A stretch of 61,841 nt of DNA from Porphyromonas gulae DSM 15663 (GTDB taxonomy: Bacteria > Bacteroidota > Bacteroidia > Bacteroidales > Porphyromonadaceae): the NCBI RefSeq assembly GCF_000378065.1, contig NZ_KB899159.1, positions 1-61,841 of the forward strand, written 5' to 3'. Positions within the stretch are counted from its first letter, which is position 1, and each line of letters starts with the position of its first letter. The position numbers and the translations under genes are program-made. Of this stretch, positions 24,274-33,136 are shown one piece after another. The notes beneath the pieces are model-generated. The model saw nothing but the letters and a program-made list of their open reading frames with translations, was not told where the DNA came from and made no database searches.

Positions 24274-25327
24274 CATTTCGAGACGAATATATCAGAATCT
24301 CCTGCCCTGCTTACCACTGTTGCCACCTTCTCCGGAGGCATCCACAGCGAAGCCATCGGCCATCTCTCCTCGAAAAACATCTTGAAAACACTTTCGGGAA
24401 TTCAAAGAGAGCACAAAAGGATAACCCCAAAAACAATAAACCGCTCAAAAATCATGCGCCAAAAAAGTTTTCAACAACGAAGACGAGTTTGGAATGATTC
24501 CAAATAAGCATCTCCGGAGACAATAAAACCGAGGCAAAAGCAGCGAGGAGATGAACTTTCACAGACTGAAAAACGAATTAAAACAAGTCGGACAACGATC
24601 TGTATATAAAACATTTTTGATTTATATATAAATCGTTTTCGTTTTGTATATAAATCGTTTTTAATAAATATATAAATCGTAAATGATTTATATATAAATC
24701 GCAGGATCAAAAAAGCCTTTTCAGCAGCTGATATAAAAGAAGCACCCGTCGAGTTCTCCGTAGAACTCCGACGGGTGCAGCCCGGATATGTATGTGGTGG
24801 GGCCTATGCCAAGATGCTATCCTTCTACATGTGATCTGAAGTGGATGTACGAATTTCCTCTGTGCAATCTCGGATCGGATCGTGGTTTGTTGCTGAGGCG
24901 AAATGCCCGAACAGGAGCTTATTCGGGCTTGATGTCAGGTGATGGGGCGTAGCTGGTATTCACAGATGTGTGGCATTTTCTTCTATAAATATTCTCTTTT
25001 TCAATTTATTGCTCGTTTCCAATACACGGGGAATCCACAGTTCGGAGCAATGCTTTTCGGCAAGACAAAATTAGCCAAATCTTTTTTTCCCACCAACGGC
25101 TATTGCCCTTCAGGGTATAATCTGCATGACACAATTTTTGAGGAAAATATTTGCACAATTTAATTTCATTTTATACATTGTAGCCGAAAATCAACTGTAG
25201 AGACACTTACTTATGAAAAACGACGATAATCCACCAAGCACAGTGGCGGCAGACTTGTAAATACTAAAGTCATGCCACGCCCTCCGTGAGAAATAATCAA
25301 TCAAATTCATTTGAAGACAATACGAAA
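24274..25327. other. 1-kb intergenic region before the C25 protease island
   Basis: This region holds the 22-bp repeat array, a near-perfect hairpin at 24742-24778 (stem GCACCCGTCG plus AGTTCT with one bulge, T-rich on the minus strand), and a smaller hairpin at 24905-24928 (GCCCGAA/TTCGGGC). An open frame of 74 codons at 24939-25163 has no signal or family resemblance and is not called. The A/T-rich 24370-24710 differs in base composition from the flanking genes. Confidence 0.7.
24603..24701 (+). repeat. Five repeats at exact 22-bp spacing
   Basis: TATATAAA begins at 24603, 24625, 24647, 24669 and 24691. Four of the five continue as TATATAAATCG; the first reads TATATAAAACA. The other half of each unit varies (T-rich). 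I recall 22-bp direct repeats being described in P. gingivalis but could not check a match. Confidence 0.85.
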
Positions 25328-26260
25328 ATGAGAAAAACAATAATTTTCTGCTTGCTGCTCGCCCTGTTTAGCTTTTCTTGGGCACAAGAAAGAGTCGATG
25401 AAAAAGTATTCTCCGCAGGAACAAGTATTTTTAGGGGCATCCTTGAAAAGGTGAAAGCACCGCTTATGTATGGAGATCGTGAGGTATGGGGTATGGCTCG
25501 TGCGAGCGAGGATTTCTTTTTTATACTTCCCGTTACGGATGACCTCACTCCCGTGCTTTTCTATAACCGTCTTACAAACGAACCCTGCTTTGTGTCAAAC
25601 CAAGGAATAACTGAGTTTTTCAAATTCGCTCAAGAAGGTGATTACATTGAAGTAGAAGGAAGCTCTGTATTCATGGGGAATCTTTTGTACTATCGTTTTT
25701 TTCCGACAAGAATTACCTCCTATAATGCTTCCATTGAAGGCGTTGTGAGCATGACGGGGAATCCTGCTTTTACAATTCCGATACTCCCCGGGGCTTCTGA
25801 TTGCATAGAAATCTCAAACAACCGCAAAGTCTTTCTGACAAATCAATTAGGGGTTGTAAACATCACTGACGGGATGGAACCTCCGATTATTGCCGGAGTC
25901 TCTGCTTCCTTTGGGTCTTCTGTTCGGGTGTATGGTCATGTCTCACAGCGGTGGGACATCATAGGCCGCTGCTATTTGGATATTTATCCGACCAATTGCT
26001 ACCCGCTCAGCATGAAACCCGTTGCAGGAGACGATGAGGTTTTTGTCAAACAACAAGGCAGGCAAATAGAGATCGATAGCAACAGCCCCATAGTCCAAGT
26101 GGTCGTATACGATCTTGAGGGGAAAAGTGTTTTTCGCAAAAGAATGACCGAAAACGCTTATACCCTATCCTTCAGGGCACCTATGCTCGGCTTTATGACT
26201 ATCATGATCGAAACACAAAATTCGATTATCAATAAAAAACTTAATGTTACTCAGCTATGA
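25328..26260 (+). CDS. T9SS cargo protein, small paralogue 1 of the C25 island
   Basis: This 310-residue protein has a signal peptide (MRKTIIFCLLLALFSFSWAQ) and a C-terminal T9SS sorting domain (about 235-310: QIEIDSNSPIVQVVVYDLEG, then LGFMTIMIET and KKLNVTQL). The middle (about 35-215) is a beta-rich module also found in the proteins at 29014 and 29711, with the pattern VWG, GDYIEVEG, YYRFFPTRIT, IEGVVS, VRVYGHVSQRW. No enzyme motif is visible. The start at 25328 is chosen for the signal peptide. Its stop overlaps the protease start as ATGA, which points to joint production. Function unknown; a pro-protein, chaperone, inhibitor or ligand-binding role for the neighbouring protease is conceivable. 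Confidence 0.8.
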   Translation: MRKTIIFCLLLALFSFSWAQERVDEKVFSAGTSIFRGILEKVKAPLMYGDREVWGMARASEDFFFILPVTDDLTPVLFYNRLTNEPCFVSNQGITEFFKFAQEGDYIEVEGSSVFMGNLLYYRFFPTRITSYNASIEGVVSMTGNPAFTIPILPGASDCIEISNNRKVFLTNQLGVVNITDGMEPPIIAGVSASFGSSVRVYGHVSQRWDIIGRCYLDIYPTNCYPLSMKPVAGDDEVFVKQQGRQIEIDSNSPIVQVVVYDLEGKSVFRKRMTENAYTLSFRAPMLGFMTIMIETQNSIINKKLNVTQL

Positions 26261-28950
26261 GGCGAATAATTTTATTATTCAGTGCTCTCTGCTTCTTCGT
26301 GTCACCTTATGTACAAGCGCAGAATGAAGGTTCAGATACTTATTATCGACAAATGTTTGAGCTAATCCGCTCCGACTTCGAACGGGATATGCTCTTACCT
26401 CAAGTGACCTCCATAACACTTCCGTCCGGACCGCTATCTGTGGTGAAAAGATTGGAGTTGCAAGCGAAAACGAATCAGACAGCAGAATATGTGATGATAG
26501 TTGTCGATAAACTCACTTATGACAATGTTAAATCATACATCGACCGATACGCAACCGACATTAATAATGTGACCCAAAAAAAGATAACTCTTTATACAGT
26601 CCAAAATGCATCACACATGGATGTCAAAGATCTTCTTGTACAGAATAGTCCTAACCTATGGGGGGCCGTTTTTATCGGCGATATCCCCACAGCAAGATAC
26701 GAGGGGCTCCACTTCGAAACAGGTGTCTATGCTTCGTGGCCTTGTGATCTTTACTATATGGACTTGAACGGCGATTGGATAGACAAAAACGGCAACAACA
26801 TATTCGACAATCACACCGGAAACGCTGCGCTGGAAAAAAACGTAGAGCCGGAAATATTTGTAGGAAGAATATCGACTAAGGGCATTGAAACAGGTTACGC
26901 GAAACTCAGAAAATATTTTGACAAAAATCATCAATTCTGGAGCAATACCAACCGCTTTAATGGTAAATACTCTTTGGCATACCTTGATTTCGATTGGACT
27001 TCTCTCAACAGCGATCTAGCTGTAGCAGCTCATGACATTTTTGCTCCGGGTGATCTCAAATCGGATTACGTTCGCTGTGGCGTTGATCCAGAATTTGGAT
27101 CAACGGATTATCTCGAAAGAATCAGCACCACCAAATACGACTTTGCCGTTTTGGCATGTCACTCAAGCCCTACGTGGCACTTCATGACGGGAGGGGGCAT
27201 TGGCTCACAAACCATTATCAACCGTAATGTTCGCTCCACCTTTTTCAATCTCTTCTGCTGTTCTGCCTGCGATTGGGAGCAACCCTCTACCACCACACCC
27301 TACCTCGGCGGTGCATACGTCTATGGCAATGAGAGTGGTACGTTGTCTCTCGTTGGCAGCACCAAAATAGGATCAATGCTGAGATTCTATAACTTTAATT
27401 CTCATTTGGGCCAAGGAAAGAGCATCGGAGAGTCCCTCAAGGAATGGTGGCACCAAACCTGTGGAGCCGAACATAGTAACTGGGAGGTTAGCTGGTTCTA
27501 TGGCCTCACAATAGTCGGAGACCCTTTGCTTTTTATCCCGCAGAAATACGATCTGATGATCAAGGACAATCCTGAGGATATAGGCATTGAGCCCAACCTT
27601 TCTACCCAAATCAGTTGGAATAGCCCCGACATTTGGGTTAGAAACCAAAATGACGATGTCCTTGATGAACATCAACAACCTATTTACAAACCGAATGGAG
27701 AACCTAACTACATTTATGTCCGCATCCGCAATAATAGTAAGTACACATCCGCTCCTGACGCTGCACTCAGAGTGTCAGCAAGGGGAGACAATTCTTTCTC
27801 TGTACAAACTCCAATAGGGACCATACCGGCATTTTCAAGCAAGGTGCTGAAATTCCCGTGGGTTGTTGCAGCCCCACCATCAGATGTAAGCGTAAAGCCG
27901 ACTTATACATTGTCCGCTAGAATAAATTCTGTGGAAGATGTACTAACATTTTCTACTCCTAACAGCCCCGGCAGCACTGCAGATCACATTCTGAACAACA
28001 ATAATTTGACAAGAAAAAGAGTAGCAGTACTTAACATCGCACCCGCATATCAAGGAGTAAGTGGATATGGTGTACGAATCTCTTTTGATAGTTTGCCGGG
28101 AACAAGCAACTATAGTATAGAGTTCGTGGAAGAGCTGACAGAGACTTATGGATCACCGACGGCAGAAGCCGAAGTTACGCTAAATCTTGGAGATCGCTTG
28201 CAAGAAGCATGGCAGCAAAGCGGTGAAGAAGCAATGGGTATATCAAGCTACAGGAGTGGTTCTGATATCCTTCAGATCAACCGGAATTATTCAGAACTAA
28301 AAAATATTTCTGTCAATGACAATACCGGTTTAGATCTGACCCTCCACTTCAACTTCTTGACAAAGAAACTGACCAATGACAATCGCTATGTGTATCATGT
28401 AAGGATACGCGACAATGCAACCAACGAGATCGTCGATGGACAAACCATTGTTATCAACAAGGAAAACAGTTTTGATGTTCGCTCTGCAATTACTGTGAGT
28501 GAAAATGAGAATCCCACCTTGATGGCAGAAGAGATCTCTATTCCGGCATCTTACAACTGGTATGATGGCTCTATGAACTTGCTTGCTGCAGATACGCTTG
28601 TCTTTGATGCCAATCAGAACAACGGAGAGTATATCTTAGAAGTAACAGCAAAAGAAAGCGGCTTCAAAGACTACTCGCATATCTCTGTGATTCCGACAAA
28701 CCAGATCGCGTCCATATCTCCCAATCCTGCCACGAACCTAATAACCATTACTTTCAGTAAAGTAATGCAACAGGGGGCAAAGATCGGCATCGTATCTGCT
28801 CAGGGTGTCAATATGGAGACAATCGTATTCGGACAAGAATGTTCTTCATTCACGAAAGATGTTTCCGGTTATCCTGCTTCCTCTTACACCGTTATTCTTT
28901 GGGATGCCGGTGGAAAGAAAGTAGGCAGCAAGATTTTTGTTAAACAGTAA
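26257..28950 (+). CDS. Gingipain-like (family C25, clan CD) cysteine protease, T9SS-secreted
   Basis: This 897-residue protein has a signal peptide (1-22), an N-terminal region, and a caspase-like C25 catalytic domain (about 75-430). Hallmarks are AVFIGDIPTARYEG (138-150), the acidic calcium-site-like LNGDWIDKNGNNIFD (170-184), EIFVGRIS (199-206), the catalytic His302 (LACHSSPTWH), and a cysteine cluster C334/C335/C338 (FCCSACDW). The His-Cys gap of 33-36 residues fits the gingipain dyad. The catalytic domain ends at YGLTIVGDPLLFI. Ig-like beta domains fill about 430-810, and the last 80 residues are a T9SS sorting domain beginning ISPNPATN. I do not recognise it as RgpA, RgpB, Kgp or PorU. 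Specificity and activity are unknown; which cysteine is the nucleophile is uncertain. Confidence 0.85.
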   Translation: MRRIILLFSALCFFVSPYVQAQNEGSDTYYRQMFELIRSDFERDMLLPQVTSITLPSGPLSVVKRLELQAKTNQTAEYVMIVVDKLTYDNVKSYIDRYATDINNVTQKKITLYTVQNASHMDVKDLLVQNSPNLWGAVFIGDIPTARYEGLHFETGVYASWPCDLYYMDLNGDWIDKNGNNIFDNHTGNAALEKNVEPEIFVGRISTKGIETGYAKLRKYFDKNHQFWSNTNRFNGKYSLAYLDFDWTSLNSDLAVAAHDIFAPGDLKSDYVRCGVDPEFGSTDYLERISTTKYDFAVLACHSSPTWHFMTGGGIGSQTIINRNVRSTFFNLFCCSACDWEQPSTTTPYLGGAYVYGNESGTLSLVGSTKIGSMLRFYNFNSHLGQGKSIGESLKEWWHQTCGAEHSNWEVSWFYGLTIVGDPLLFIPQKYDLMIKDNPEDIGIEPNLSTQISWNSPDIWVRNQNDDVLDEHQQPIYKPNGEPNYIYVRIRNNSKYTSAPDAALRVSARGDNSFSVQTPIGTIPAFSSKVLKFPWVVAAPPSDVSVKPTYTLSARINSVEDVLTFSTPNSPGSTADHILNNNNLTRKRVAVLNIAPAYQGVSGYGVRISFDSLPGTSNYSIEFVEELTETYGSPTAEAEVTLNLGDRLQEAWQQSGEEAMGISSYRSGSDILQINRNYSELKNISVNDNTGLDLTLHFNFLTKKLTNDNRYVYHVRIRDNATNEIVDGQTIVINKENSFDVRSAITVSENENPTLMAEEISIPASYNWYDGSMNLLAADTLVFDANQNNGEYILEVTAKESGFKDYSHISVIPTNQIASISPNPATNLITITFSKVMQQGAKIGIVSAQGVNMETIVFGQECSSFTKDVSGYPASSYTVILWDAGGKKVGSKIFVKQ

Positions 28951-28960
28951 CGATTAACTC

Positions 28961-29000
28961 AGAGCCGGAATCATATAGAATTTATATAATTCCGGCTCTT
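28961..29000 (+). terminator. Hairpin between the protease gene and paralogue 2
   Basis: An 11-bp perfect stem (AGAGCCGGAAT/ATTCCGGCTCT, 28961-28971 with 28989-28999) 10 bp after the protease stop, followed by weak TAACTAAT. It could partly end transcription, making the two downstream genes lower or separate. Confidence 0.65.
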
Positions 29001-29013
29001 AACTAATAAGTTT

Positions 29014-29703
29014 ATGATGAAAAAAGCATTTGTTTTCGTACTACTGGTTTGCCTATTCTCCTCGTTCAGCAGTTTTGCCCAAACAGCTACGAACGGCAGC
29101 CGGAGTTATTTTACAGGACGAATCGAGAAGGTGAGTTTGAACTTAGGGGTCCCACCCGTAAGCACGGAGATTTGGGGAATAACCCATGATGCGAATGGTC
29201 TCCCTTTCGAAATACCTATCTCTTTCAGTCGTTTCAACAGCCTGGGAGATATAGCTACCACCTATTACATAGCGAATAGCGAGGCAACTTTGAATGAATG
29301 GTGCGACTATGCACACCCGGGCGACATCGTGACGATAGAAGGTCGTTTTATGAAAATGACTTACAACATACCAACCTACAATGCTGTCTGCACTCGGATC
29401 ACATTTGAGAATCAAGAAATAGAAGGAGCGATCGTCTTGATACCCAAACCCAAAGTCTCGCTACCTCATGTATCGGAATCGGTACCCTGTATCCGAACCG
29501 AAGCCGGGAGGGAGTTTATCCTTTGCAAAGAAGACGACACCTTTGTGTCTTACGATGGTAACGAAGTAACGATAGGAGGTAAACCTTTCTTGCTCAATAC
29601 CAATGTAAAGATTGTGGGGGACGTATCCCAAAAGTATGCCGTGGGCGCAGGAGAAATTCGATTCCTGCAGATTTGTGCCAAAACAGTATCACAACAAAAA
29701 TGA
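29014..29703 (+). CDS. Exported protein, small paralogue 2 of the C25 island
   Basis: This 229-residue protein has a signal peptide (about 1-22, ending SSFAQ) and a single beta-rich module that shares a clear pattern with its neighbours: EIWGI, YAHPGDIVTIEGRF, AVCTRITFENQEIEG, IPKP, VSYDGNEVTIGGKPFLLNT, VKIVGDVSQKY, ICAK. Unlike the proteins at 25328 and 29711 it stops right after this module and has no T9SS sorting domain, so it should stay in the periplasm unless partnered. Function unknown. The next gene starts 7 bp later. Confidence 0.78.
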   Translation: MMKKAFVFVLLVCLFSSFSSFAQTATNGSRSYFTGRIEKVSLNLGVPPVSTEIWGITHDANGLPFEIPISFSRFNSLGDIATTYYIANSEATLNEWCDYAHPGDIVTIEGRFMKMTYNIPTYNAVCTRITFENQEIEGAIVLIPKPKVSLPHVSESVPCIRTEAGREFILCKEDDTFVSYDGNEVTIGGKPFLLNTNVKIVGDVSQKYAVGAGEIRFLQICAKTVSQQK

Positions 29704-29710
29704 ACACAAG

Positions 29711-30649
29711 ATGAAACAAACAATACTCGGCATACAGCTACCGCAATGGACAAGGATTTGGCTTTCATTTTTCATGATTGCAGGATGTACAGTAGCATTA
29801 TCGGGGCAATCGCAATCGAGAGGATACGCAACGACCGGCATCTTAGAGCCTGTCATGTTGCCCGATACTGTCTCAGTCGATTATCACTCGGCCTGGGGGA
29901 TGGTATGCGATGCACAACTGAATGCCTTTGACAAGCCGATAGCCTTTAGAGCACCATTCAGTTATCAGGGAAAAGGTTATTATTATCCTACAGCTTATTA
30001 TGGGGGATTAAGGGAGTTCTGTCCATACGCCAAGTTGGGCGATAGGCTCGTTACAGAAGGTCGTTTCCATGAATTTGATGCCTACTATGAACTGATGTGC
30101 ACACGCATCACTCTCCCCAATCGAACATTCGAGGGAGTGATTACCGAGATTCCTATGCCGCAATTCACGTATCCGGAAGTGACAGCTACCATTGTTTGCG
30201 TAAAAGAGGACAGCGGCTTCGAGATCGCAATCAAAGATGACGAAGGCAACTTTATCAGTAGTGAAAATGGCGAAGTAATGATAGCCGGCAACTCCTACCC
30301 CCTCCAAACACACGTCAGGATAGAGGGAGATATTGTGCAGGATTACCAGCTGAAGTATCCCATTATCTTCTATAGCACGGTTGCCAAATCATGCCACACG
30401 ACAGACAGCCAAAACGTTATACCTTCGTCGAATGACATAAATGTCTACGCCAAAGGAACGGTCATCAGCATCAAGGCAGAAAAACAGATCGAAGCAGTCT
30501 ATATTTATGATATGGCAGGACGGATACTTTTTGCCACGAGTCAAACACAGGGCCGAGAATTTTGTATCGACTTAAAGACGAAGGGCCATGTTCTCGTCAC
30601 TGTTTTGTTCGCAGATAATACACAGACATCTAAGAACATCATCTTGTAG
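29711..30649 (+). CDS. T9SS cargo protein, small paralogue 3 of the C25 island
   Basis: This 312-residue protein has the same module as paralogue 2 (AWGMV, YAKLGDRLVTEGRF, LMCTRITLPNRTFEGVI, IPMP, FISSENGEVMIAG, VRIEGDIVQDY, AKSC) followed by a T9SS sorting domain (about 245-312: VYIYDMAGR, GHVLVTVLFADN). The N-terminal hydrophobic stretch is preceded by a rather long n-region and contains MIAGC, which fits a lipobox as well as a signal-peptidase I site. The start at 29711 is chosen because the longer frame overlaps the previous gene with no signal. Function unknown. A strong terminator closes the island after it. Confidence 0.78.
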   Translation: MKQTILGIQLPQWTRIWLSFFMIAGCTVALSGQSQSRGYATTGILEPVMLPDTVSVDYHSAWGMVCDAQLNAFDKPIAFRAPFSYQGKGYYYPTAYYGGLREFCPYAKLGDRLVTEGRFHEFDAYYELMCTRITLPNRTFEGVITEIPMPQFTYPEVTATIVCVKEDSGFEIAIKDDEGNFISSENGEVMIAGNSYPLQTHVRIEGDIVQDYQLKYPIIFYSTVAKSCHTTDSQNVIPSSNDINVYAKGTVISIKAEKQIEAVYIYDMAGRILFATSQTQGREFCIDLKTKGHVLVTVLFADNTQTSKNIIL

Positions 30650-30733
30650 GACGGGTTTCGTCAGCTCTGAGAAACCGACCTTGAGCATTCTATCAAGAGG
30701 CATCGCGAAAAAACGTATTATTTGAATCCTATT

Positions 30734-30769
30734 GACGCCGATGAGAACACTTTCGTCGGCGTCTTTTTC
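30734..30769 (+). terminator. Terminator closing the C25 island
   Basis: Stem GACGCCGA/TCGGCGTC (30734-30741 with 30756-30763) followed by TTTTTCT. Confidence 0.82.
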
Positions 30770-30904
30770 TATGTATATATGCAACGCTACTGCAGATGGG
30801 ATGTGCAGTGGAGTTATTTTATTATTATTCTGCATTTTATCGTCCCTTTTGTGTACTTTTGCCCACGATACTAAAGAGTTATAGATTAGAAATAAAAAAG
30901 ACTT

Positions 30905-33136
30905 ATGCTTAACGTTGTAAGTAAGACTATCGATCTGGGGGACGGCCGTTCCATTAAGATCGAAACCGGCAAATTGGCCAAGCAAGCCGATGGTGCCGTG
31001 ACAGTCACCATGGGCAATACGGTATTGCTCGCTACAGTTTGTGCAGCCAAAAACGCTAACCCCGGCTGCGACTTCATGCCTCTTCAGGTGGAATACAAGG
31101 AGAAATACTCCGCCATCGGACGCTTCCCCGGAGGATTCACTCGCCGTGAAGGCAAGGCTTCGGATTATGAGATCCTGACTTGCCGCCTTGTGGACCGCGC
31201 CCTTCGTCCGCTTTTCCCGGACAACTATCATGCAGAGGTATTCGTCAATGTGATCCTCTTTTCAGCCGACGGCGAGGATATGCCCGATGCCTTGGCCGGT
31301 TTGGCTGCTTCGGCAGCTCTCGCCGTCTCCGATATACCGTTCAACGGCCCTATCAGCGAAGTACGGGTAGCGCGTGTGGACGGCCGTTTTATCATCAATC
31401 CCACTTTCGAGCAGCTTGAGCGCGCCGACATAGACCTGATGGTCGGAGCCACGATGGACAACATCATGATGGTCGAAGGTGAAATGGACGAAGTACAGGA
31501 ATCCGAAATGCTCGAAGGCATTCGCGTAGCACACGAAGCCATCAAGGTACAGTGCAAGGCACAGCTCGAACTGTCGGAAGCAGTAGGAAAGCTCCAAAAG
31601 CGCGAGTACTGCCACGAAGTGAACGATGAAGACCTGCGCAAGAAGGTACACGACGAATGCTACGCTCGCGCCTATGAGGTGGCGACCAGTGGCACCGGCA
31701 AACATGAACGCGGCGAAGCTTTTGAAAAGATCGTAGAAGAATTCAAAGCTCAGTATACAGAAGAAGAGCTCACTGAGAAGGGCGAAATGATAGCTCGCTA
31801 CTACCATGATGTAGAAAAGGAAGCAATGCGTCGTGCCATCCTTGACGAAGGCAAACGTCTGGACGGACGCAAGACCACAGAGATCCGTCCCATATGGATC
31901 GAAACAGATTGCCTGCCCGGCCCGCATGGTTCAGCTATTTTCACTCGTGGTGAGACGCAGTCCCTCACGACCGTTACTCTCGGAACAAAGAGCGACGAAA
32001 AGCTCGTGGACGACGTACTCAACTATACGAAGGAACGCTTCCTGCTGCACTACAACTTCCCTCCTTTCTCCACCGGTGAAGCTCGCCCCCAGCGTGGTGT
32101 AGGCCGCCGCGAGATCGGTCATGGCAATTTGGCTCACCGTGCCCTCAAGCGCATGATACCGGCAGATTACCCTTACGTGGTACGCGTGATCAGCGATATA
32201 TTAGAATCCAATGGTTCATCCTCAATGGCTACTGTCTGCGCGGGAACTTTGGCTCTGCGCGATGCCGGCGTACAGATCCGCAAACCCGTATCCGGTATTG
32301 CCATGGGCTTGATCTCCGAAAATCAGGGTAAGAACTACGCCATCCTCTCGGATATACTCGGCGACGAAGACCACCTCGGCGATATGGACTTCAAGGTAAC
32401 GGGTACGAAAGACGGTATCACGGCCACGCAAATGGACATCAAGGTAGACGGTCTCAGCTACGAGATTTTGGAGAATGCTCTGGAGCAAGCGAAGCAAGGA
32501 CGCCTACACATCCTCGGTAAGATTATGGAAGCTCAACCCGAGACGAGAGACGACCTCAAGCCCCACGCCCCACGTATCGAGAAGATGCGCATCGGCAAGG
32601 AGTTTATCGGAGCCGTGATAGGCCCGGGCGGAAAGATCATTCAAGGTATACAAGAGAAGAGCGGCGCCACGGTGAACATCGAAGAAGTGGATGGCATGGG
32701 CGTTATCGAAATCAGCGGTACGAACAAGTCCTGCATCGATGCCGCGATCGGCATGATCAAGGGTATTGTGGCTATGCCGGAAGTTGGAGAAACCTATCCG
32801 GGCAAGATCACAAGTGTGATGCCCTATGGCTGCTTCGTCGAATTCCTCCCCGGTAAGGAAGGACTCCTGCACATCTCGGAAGTGGATTGGAAACGATTCG
32901 AGACCATCGAGGACACCAACCTGAAGGAAGGCGAATCCATCGACGTGAAGCTGCTCGACATAGATCCGAAGACCGGCAAATTCAAACTCAGCCGCAAGGT
33001 ACTATTGGAAAAACCGGAAGGCTACGTGGAGCCTCAGCCGAGAGAGCGACGTGAGCGTCGCGAAGGCGGACGCGAGGGAGGTCGCAATTTCGAGCCTCGT
33101 GGAGGCGATCGTGAACATCGCGAGCCCCGCGGCTAA
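30905..33136 (+). CDS. pnp: Polyribonucleotide nucleotidyltransferase (PNPase)
   Basis: This 743-residue enzyme degrades RNA from the 3' end by phosphorolysis. Two RNase PH domains (about 10-230 and 325-555) flank a helical linker; [16 protein letters not shown] and [23 protein letters not shown] are conserved active-site regions. A KH domain has [13 protein letters not shown] (about 573-585) and an S1 domain follows (about 630-700). The end, after KPEGYVEPQ, is an added Arg/Glu/Gly tail with RGG-like elements that likely binds RNA. A -7 element TACTTTTG is at 30854-30861. It is transcribed alone. Confidence 0.97.

Follow-up and report, generated by a model that had tools for sequence, protein, structure and literature searches.

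What does a C25-like protease gene share with the three genes for small exported proteins that surround it in Porphyromonas gulae DSM 15663, and are those proteins dedicated partners of the protease, as their arrangement suggested to an earlier reading of the letters alone (hereafter the sequence-only reading)? The locus lies in contig NZ_KB899159.1, of which positions 1 to 61,841 (61,841 nucleotides, nt) were examined and are called the window here. All four genes are on the + strand; the three small paralogues are named M1, M2 and M3, and the protease, a C25-like protein of 897 residues (aa), is encoded between M1 and M2. Open reading frames confirmed the set as first described, M1-protease-M2-M3, with the M1 stop and the protease start overlapping as ATGA at 26257-26260, and with a gap of 7 nt between the M2 stop and the M3 start. 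Our analysis suggests that the locus is a small set of exported proteins that is passed on horizontally as one unit, with a core of three paralogues with predicted tandem oligonucleotide/oligosaccharide-binding (OB) folds, and that the protease is a detachable passenger, lost by deletion in two relatives. The features needed for this argument are as follows, T9SS standing for type IX secretion system.

25145-30776, + strand: whole cassette as common to P. loveana, from the upstream region through M1, the protease site, M2 and M3 to a terminator-like hairpin, delimited by blastn blocks and differing flanks
25328-26260, + strand: M1, with signal peptide, module and a weak match to a T9SS tail; gene order gives PGN_0654/PG0611 as its orthologue
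26257-28950, + strand: C25-like protease, 897 aa, with signal peptide and weak T9SS tail
26454-28978, + strand: interval missing in the P. gingivalis genome and in P. loveana; its ends are placed to within a few bases
28953-29007, + strand: hairpin 3′ of the protease gene, with 25-nt arms (z -7.0); its 3′ half alone is left in both deleted genomes
29014-29703, + strand: M2, 229 aa, which has a signal peptide and the module and lacks a T9SS tail; gene order gives PGN_0656/PG0613 as its orthologue
29711-30649, + strand: M3, 312 aa, with a signal peptide in which IAGC resembles a lipobox by eye, the module and a weak match to a T9SS tail; gene order gives PGN_0657/PG0614 as its orthologue

Modules were carried by 3 of 38 genomes of the family: that of the window, a P. 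gingivalis genome (G006, one contig of 2,354,886 bases, recognized from its gene order and a peptide of HBP35), and P. loveana DSM 28520 (G008), whose contig C5 gave the same match as NZ_QEKY01000005.1. When the protease was used as the query, P. gingivalis matched over residues 1-64 only and P. loveana over residues 1-66 only, leaving remnant frames that stay open for 67 and 73 codons, respectively, while M1, M2 and M3 were intact in both. DNA identity to the window stopped at 26449 in P. loveana and 26453 in P. gingivalis and restarted at 28981 and 28974, so that the junctions of the two genomes agree to within a few bases, with a missing stretch of 2.5 kb. Of the hairpin that follows the protease gene, only the 3′ half is left in these two genomes, and this half no longer folds. 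Because both protease-less genomes keep it, the sequences indicate that the protease was deleted from them; the opposite, a gain in the window by insertion into a short gene, was ruled out by the same half hairpin. One shared deletion event is the simplest reading, the alternative being two events at the same hairpin.

These observations bear directly on the proposal that M1-M3 are dedicated partners that need the protease, which is not supported: a full protease was present in one of the three module genomes, the other two have a remnant beside intact modules, and P. loveana has a solo copy of the module elsewhere. Whether the small genes occur without a C25 neighbor, a check that the sequence-only reading had named, was answered partly against it, since two of the three genomes hold a remnant only; the association itself stood, and the remnants show that it is old. 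The ratio of nonsynonymous to synonymous substitution rates (dN/dS) of M1, M2 and M3 was 0.16-0.28 in all nine pairwise comparisons. We consider it unlikely that M1-M3 are inhibitors of the cassette protease alone, in which case the deleted genomes would be losing them. Gene order and overlap would fit such inhibitors, as would remnants that mark an old association in three species, but the module frames are intact in both deleted genomes, a solo copy exists, and module dN/dS between the protease-less genomes was 0.16-0.26, although the value for the remnant frame was low as well (0.12). It is highly improbable that M1-M3 act on the protease in trans, either to assist its folding or to anchor it at the surface: the analysis yielded nothing new in favor of this, a common export route and coupled genes are consistent with it, whereas the modules were kept without this client, and six loci with relatives of the catalytic part (L045, L047, L048, L050, L032 and L033) had no module-like neighbor by eye on the stretches read.

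The cassette also stands out by its identity to P. loveana. Blocks 25145-26449 (94.6%) and 28981-30776 (94.9%) were nearly the same in the two genomes by blastn, and their flanks differ; for the window stretches neighboring the cassette, the P. loveana matches had 67-83% identity and lay on other contigs, the upstream neighbor of the cassette being found on one of them (L060, 80%). Because identity of about 95% in different surroundings contrasts with a background of 67-83%, the comparison indicates horizontal movement of the cassette between the window and P. loveana lineages, and we infer that it moved most simply in the protease-less form. In comparison, identity of the cassette block to the P. 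gingivalis genome (87-90%) was about like that of its surroundings (87-94%), with 91-92% over the 12 kb that precede the locus and 87-94% in the part that follows.

In order to place the module family, M2 was searched against its own genome (2.31 Mb, 62 contigs), where its only matches at E ≤ 10, apart from itself, were M3 (E 1e-26) and M1 (E 1e-13). Pairwise blastp gave E values of 2e-31 (M2-M3), 4e-14 (M1-M2) and 3e-11 (M1-M3), a similarity that exceeds chance and identifies the three as paralogues. Ten members, three each from the window, P. gingivalis and P. loveana plus the solo P. loveana copy, were aligned and had 23 invariant columns, including two cysteines (M2 159 and 221) that could form a disulphide. 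The motif reported by the sequence-only reading was found only in part in M1, which has Pro, not Cys, before TRIT and a different IP.P element. All three proteins align over the module in sequence; their structural alignment, a check named by the sequence-only reading, was taken up for M2 alone, and the M2 model consisted of two OB folds in tandem. From this model and the alignment, M1 and M3 would likewise be tandem OB folds. The two halves of the module had no sequence match to each other, a PDB sequence search for relatives gave no match below E 0.08, and Pfam gave only weak matches to the ten members, the best being CBM_3 at E 0.012 in 3 of 10. No relative was found on viral contigs.

Outside the three genomes, marginal module matches (E 4e-4 to 8.5e-4) were seen in 3 of 393 Bacteroidales genomes; loci L039 and L041 were inspected. 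One of these proteins (199 aa, E 4e-4) has a T9SS tail, and the 3.2 kb read there contained no C25-like gene. The solo P. loveana protein (L017, 9938-10819), which is the fourth module protein in that genome, is 36% identical to M1, has a tail-like C-terminus and adjoins an argS-like gene; by eye, no C25-like gene was seen near it within the stretch read. These copies bring in an explanation that is nearly as likely as the one we prefer, namely that the tandem-OB proteins are surface or periplasmic binding proteins for sugar, peptide, haem or a host ligand, with no part in protease control, and that the protease is a chance neighbor. OB folds bind many ligands. Retention of the modules without the protease in two of three genomes, the solo copy beside the argS-like gene, and the T9SS-tailed 199-aa protein all point in that direction. 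However, neither a ligand nor binding residues were identified, M1 overlaps the protease gene, and all three genomes have the protease or its remnant within the unit.

The reading that we prefer, tentatively and at somewhat less than an even chance, is that M1-M3 bind proteases in the manner of potempins, with a range wider than this protease alone; that the modules were kept without it suggests other targets as well. The reading draws on Tannerella forsythia, where open reading frames upstream of the KLIKK protease genes encode small putative lipoproteins (PMC4404884). The small proteins linked to KLIKK proteases are called potempins and are described as inhibitors of the co-expressed protease, there cited as unpublished work (PMC7296668), and PDB entry titles list potempin A in complex with karilysin and with MMP-12. 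The predicted OB fold, the gene overlap and the export of the cassette proteins recall these potempin-KLIKK pairs. A potempin is a small exported protein directly before a T9SS protease, as is M1, which overlaps the protease gene; M2 and M3 are downstream of it. The position of M1 and its predicted OB fold fit the potempin pattern. The differences are that KLIKK proteases are metallo- or serine proteases, while the cassette protease is C25-like, and that the six T. forsythia small proteins are putative lipoproteins without mutual similarity (PMC4404884), while M1-M3 are paralogues with putative tandem OB folds, two of them with T9SS tails.

The M2 model matched many OB families, potempin A among them, and none stood out, so that in the model the match to potempin A is no better than that to other OB folds. 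The remnant frame had dN/dS of 0.12-0.34 over 64-66 codons and cannot itself be called neutral, which weakens the argument from module retention. M1 and M3 would reach the surface by the T9SS and M2 would probably stay in the periplasm. If the potempin-like reading is right, the OB proteins would bind proteases as the Tannerella potempins do and shield the cell envelope from the cassette protease when it is present, and in its absence they may guard the envelope against other proteases of the cell itself, a neighbor or the host. The cassette therefore yields a testable hypothesis, protease binding by tandem-OB proteins. A bolder reading, which seems rather doubtful, is an orphan-immunity polymorphism, in which a surface cysteine protease and three OB-fold inhibitors circulate among P. 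gingivalis, P. gulae-like and P. loveana strains, and protease-less strains keep the inhibitors against protease-bearing kin. If this were true, the set would be, to our knowledge, the first potempin-like one aimed at a cysteine protease.

The cassette could be connected with published loci through the P. gingivalis genome, where the order is M1, remnant, M2, M3, a typA-like gene (by eye) and a 344-aa protein with DKAEPTATEQIVATPSVK, the sequence at which, as published, the tail of HBP35 (PG0616) is cleaved (PMC4560394). From the position of this peptide and the published equivalences PG0611 = PGN_0654, PG0614 = PGN_0657 and PG0616 = PGN_0659 (PMC5445135), M1, the remnant, M2 and M3 are assigned by order to PGN_0654 to PGN_0657, or PG0611-0614. 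The unit is the same by gene order, with PG0611 and PG0614 listed as T9SS cargo; the correspondence runs through G006, in which, unlike the 897-aa gene of the window, the protease is a 67-codon remnant. The deletion explains this short frame, which is PGN_0655 by order, and PG0611 and PG0614 of a major gum pathogen can now be placed in a putative tandem-OB family that the searches made here found only in three related Porphyromonas genomes. A PGN_0654 deletion mutant stays pigmented (PMC7712824). In a guanosine tetraphosphate (ppGpp)-null mutant the four PGN genes drop together (0.29, 0.37, 0.35 and 0.27; PMC6994654), and in a PG_0686 mutant PG_0611, PG_0613 and PG_0614 drop together, PG_0612 being without a value (PMC10101095). 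In the available portions of the papers found by locus tags and by P. gulae gingipain, C25 and pangenome topics, no function was given for PG0611-0614 or PGN_0654-0657, and no paper was found that links the OB fold with the T9SS and P. gingivalis.

The same proteins inform the export signals. T9SS domains had been assigned to the protease and two paralogues, the third lacking one. Profile matches were weak and all below curated cut-offs (protease E 0.0016, M3 E 9e-4, M1 E 0.08), while a proteomic list of T9SS cargo in P. gingivalis includes PG0611, orthologous to M1, and PG0614, orthologous to M3 (PMC5445135), and the lack of a tail in M2 was upheld. By eye, a lipobox-like IAGC was seen at the signal peptide of M3 and no lipobox in M1 and M2 of the window; PG0611 is termed a lipoprotein in tables of two papers.

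For the protease itself, the following features were assigned.

26491-27546, + strand: catalytic part, residues 79-430, with homologues elsewhere in Bacteroidales, among them one (L045) above the C25 cut-off
27160-27162, + strand: His302, predicted catalytic His, in 7/7 aligned sequences
27259-27261, + strand: Cys335, predicted catalytic Cys, in 5/7 aligned sequences, absent in L032 and L033
27547-28947, + strand: exchangeable tail, residues 431-897, with a weak T9SS sorting-domain match at its end; it matches second halves of S8, M4, C1 and C13 peptidases

His302 and the cysteines 334, 335 and 338 are as first stated. The window protein was aligned with six relatives, those matching the catalytic part among 16 loci examined, and His302 and Cys335 are the likely catalytic dyad. 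These relatives are Bacteroidales proteins of about 390-770 residues. Against the curated Pfam C25 cut-off of 23 bits, the whole protease scored 18.4 bits (E 0.0014), the catalytic part alone 20.8 bits (E 2.5e-4), and the genome search 22.2 bits. Four of the six members of the catalytic-part set, the window's included, matched C25 at E ≤ 1, the best being L045 with 40.8 bits, above the cut-off. hhalign against the gingipains of the same genome gave a probability of 1.2% (E 0.045, two gingipain rows only), and a single-sequence model of the protease (pLDDT 32.9, pTM 0.23) was too poor to show a caspase-like fold. In view of the sub-cut-off scores, the lack of an hhalign match and the failed model, the enzyme is labeled C25-like and is not filed as a C25 member; of the original claim, the weak C25 match and the predicted His/Cys dyad remain. 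Two relatives from the genus of the window (L032, 7706-9424; L033, 7863-9494) keep the catalytic His, have lost the Cys, and lie between housekeeping-like genes; they are probably inactive enzymes. At L050 (768-3065), which is outside the set and had no C25 match in the Pfam scan, a C25-like catalytic part is interrupted by inserted hemopexin repeats.

Gingipains and PG0410, which belong to C25, have a predicted His/Cys dyad, a signal peptide and a T9SS tail, as has the cassette protease, with a tail match that is weak. PG0410 is reported in few strains, two of P. gingivalis and three of 12 of P. gulae (PMC5266723), and is thus patchy among strains, as is the cassette protease. The latter differs by a divergent catalytic part below the Pfam cut-off, a tail common to S8, M4, C1 and C13 peptidases, and its locus. 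PG0410 itself was rejected as its identity, because PG0410 adjoins PG0411, whereas the cassette maps to PG0611-0614.

The tail, at about 23-34% identity, matched proteins with other catalytic domains, namely S8 (L044, L049, L051), M4 (L046), C1 (L034, L036, L037, L053) and C13 (L052), with L054 as a further match. A T9SS sorting domain was seen in six of nine tail relatives, in all cases below the cut-off, and none was shown in L051, L052 and L053. Because the tail also follows these other domains, the protease is a chimera, in which a C25-like catalytic part is joined to a tail exchanged among exported peptidases. The occurrence of this tail behind five kinds of catalytic domain shows that these exported peptidases evolve by domain exchange. 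A small protein beside the L044 S8 peptidase had no match to the module. Tail relatives in genomes G005 and G023 were considered as C25 proteases and rejected, the three scanned (L034, L036, L037) being papain-like C1. By eye, C1 peptidases in these two genomes adjoin other signal-peptide proteins, one of which was scanned (L034, 3925-5400) and is a BspA-type leucine-rich repeat protein; a layout of protease plus exported companions is therefore not special to OB folds. Large exported proteins with one to three similar companions adjoining were also noted at L034 (680-7257), L035 (4398-10588) and L037 (948-5633), those of L034 and L037 being C1 papain-like.

Minor features were found at the cassette boundaries.

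30734-30763, + strand: intrinsic-terminator-like hairpin after M3, 13 pairs and a T-run, a pattern match only (8 sites in the scan against 5.5 expected)

No Bacteroidetes-type promoter pattern was found before M1, and the 2 matches in the window are at chance level. The sequence directly after the cassette (30776-30905) differs in each genome by eye, being pnp-like in the window, typA-like in P. gingivalis and DUF1016-like in P. loveana. Upstream of the cassette, AT-rich repeated TATATAAATCG-like units occupy 24619-24699, and the P. gingivalis genome holds this stretch and also matches it in reverse.
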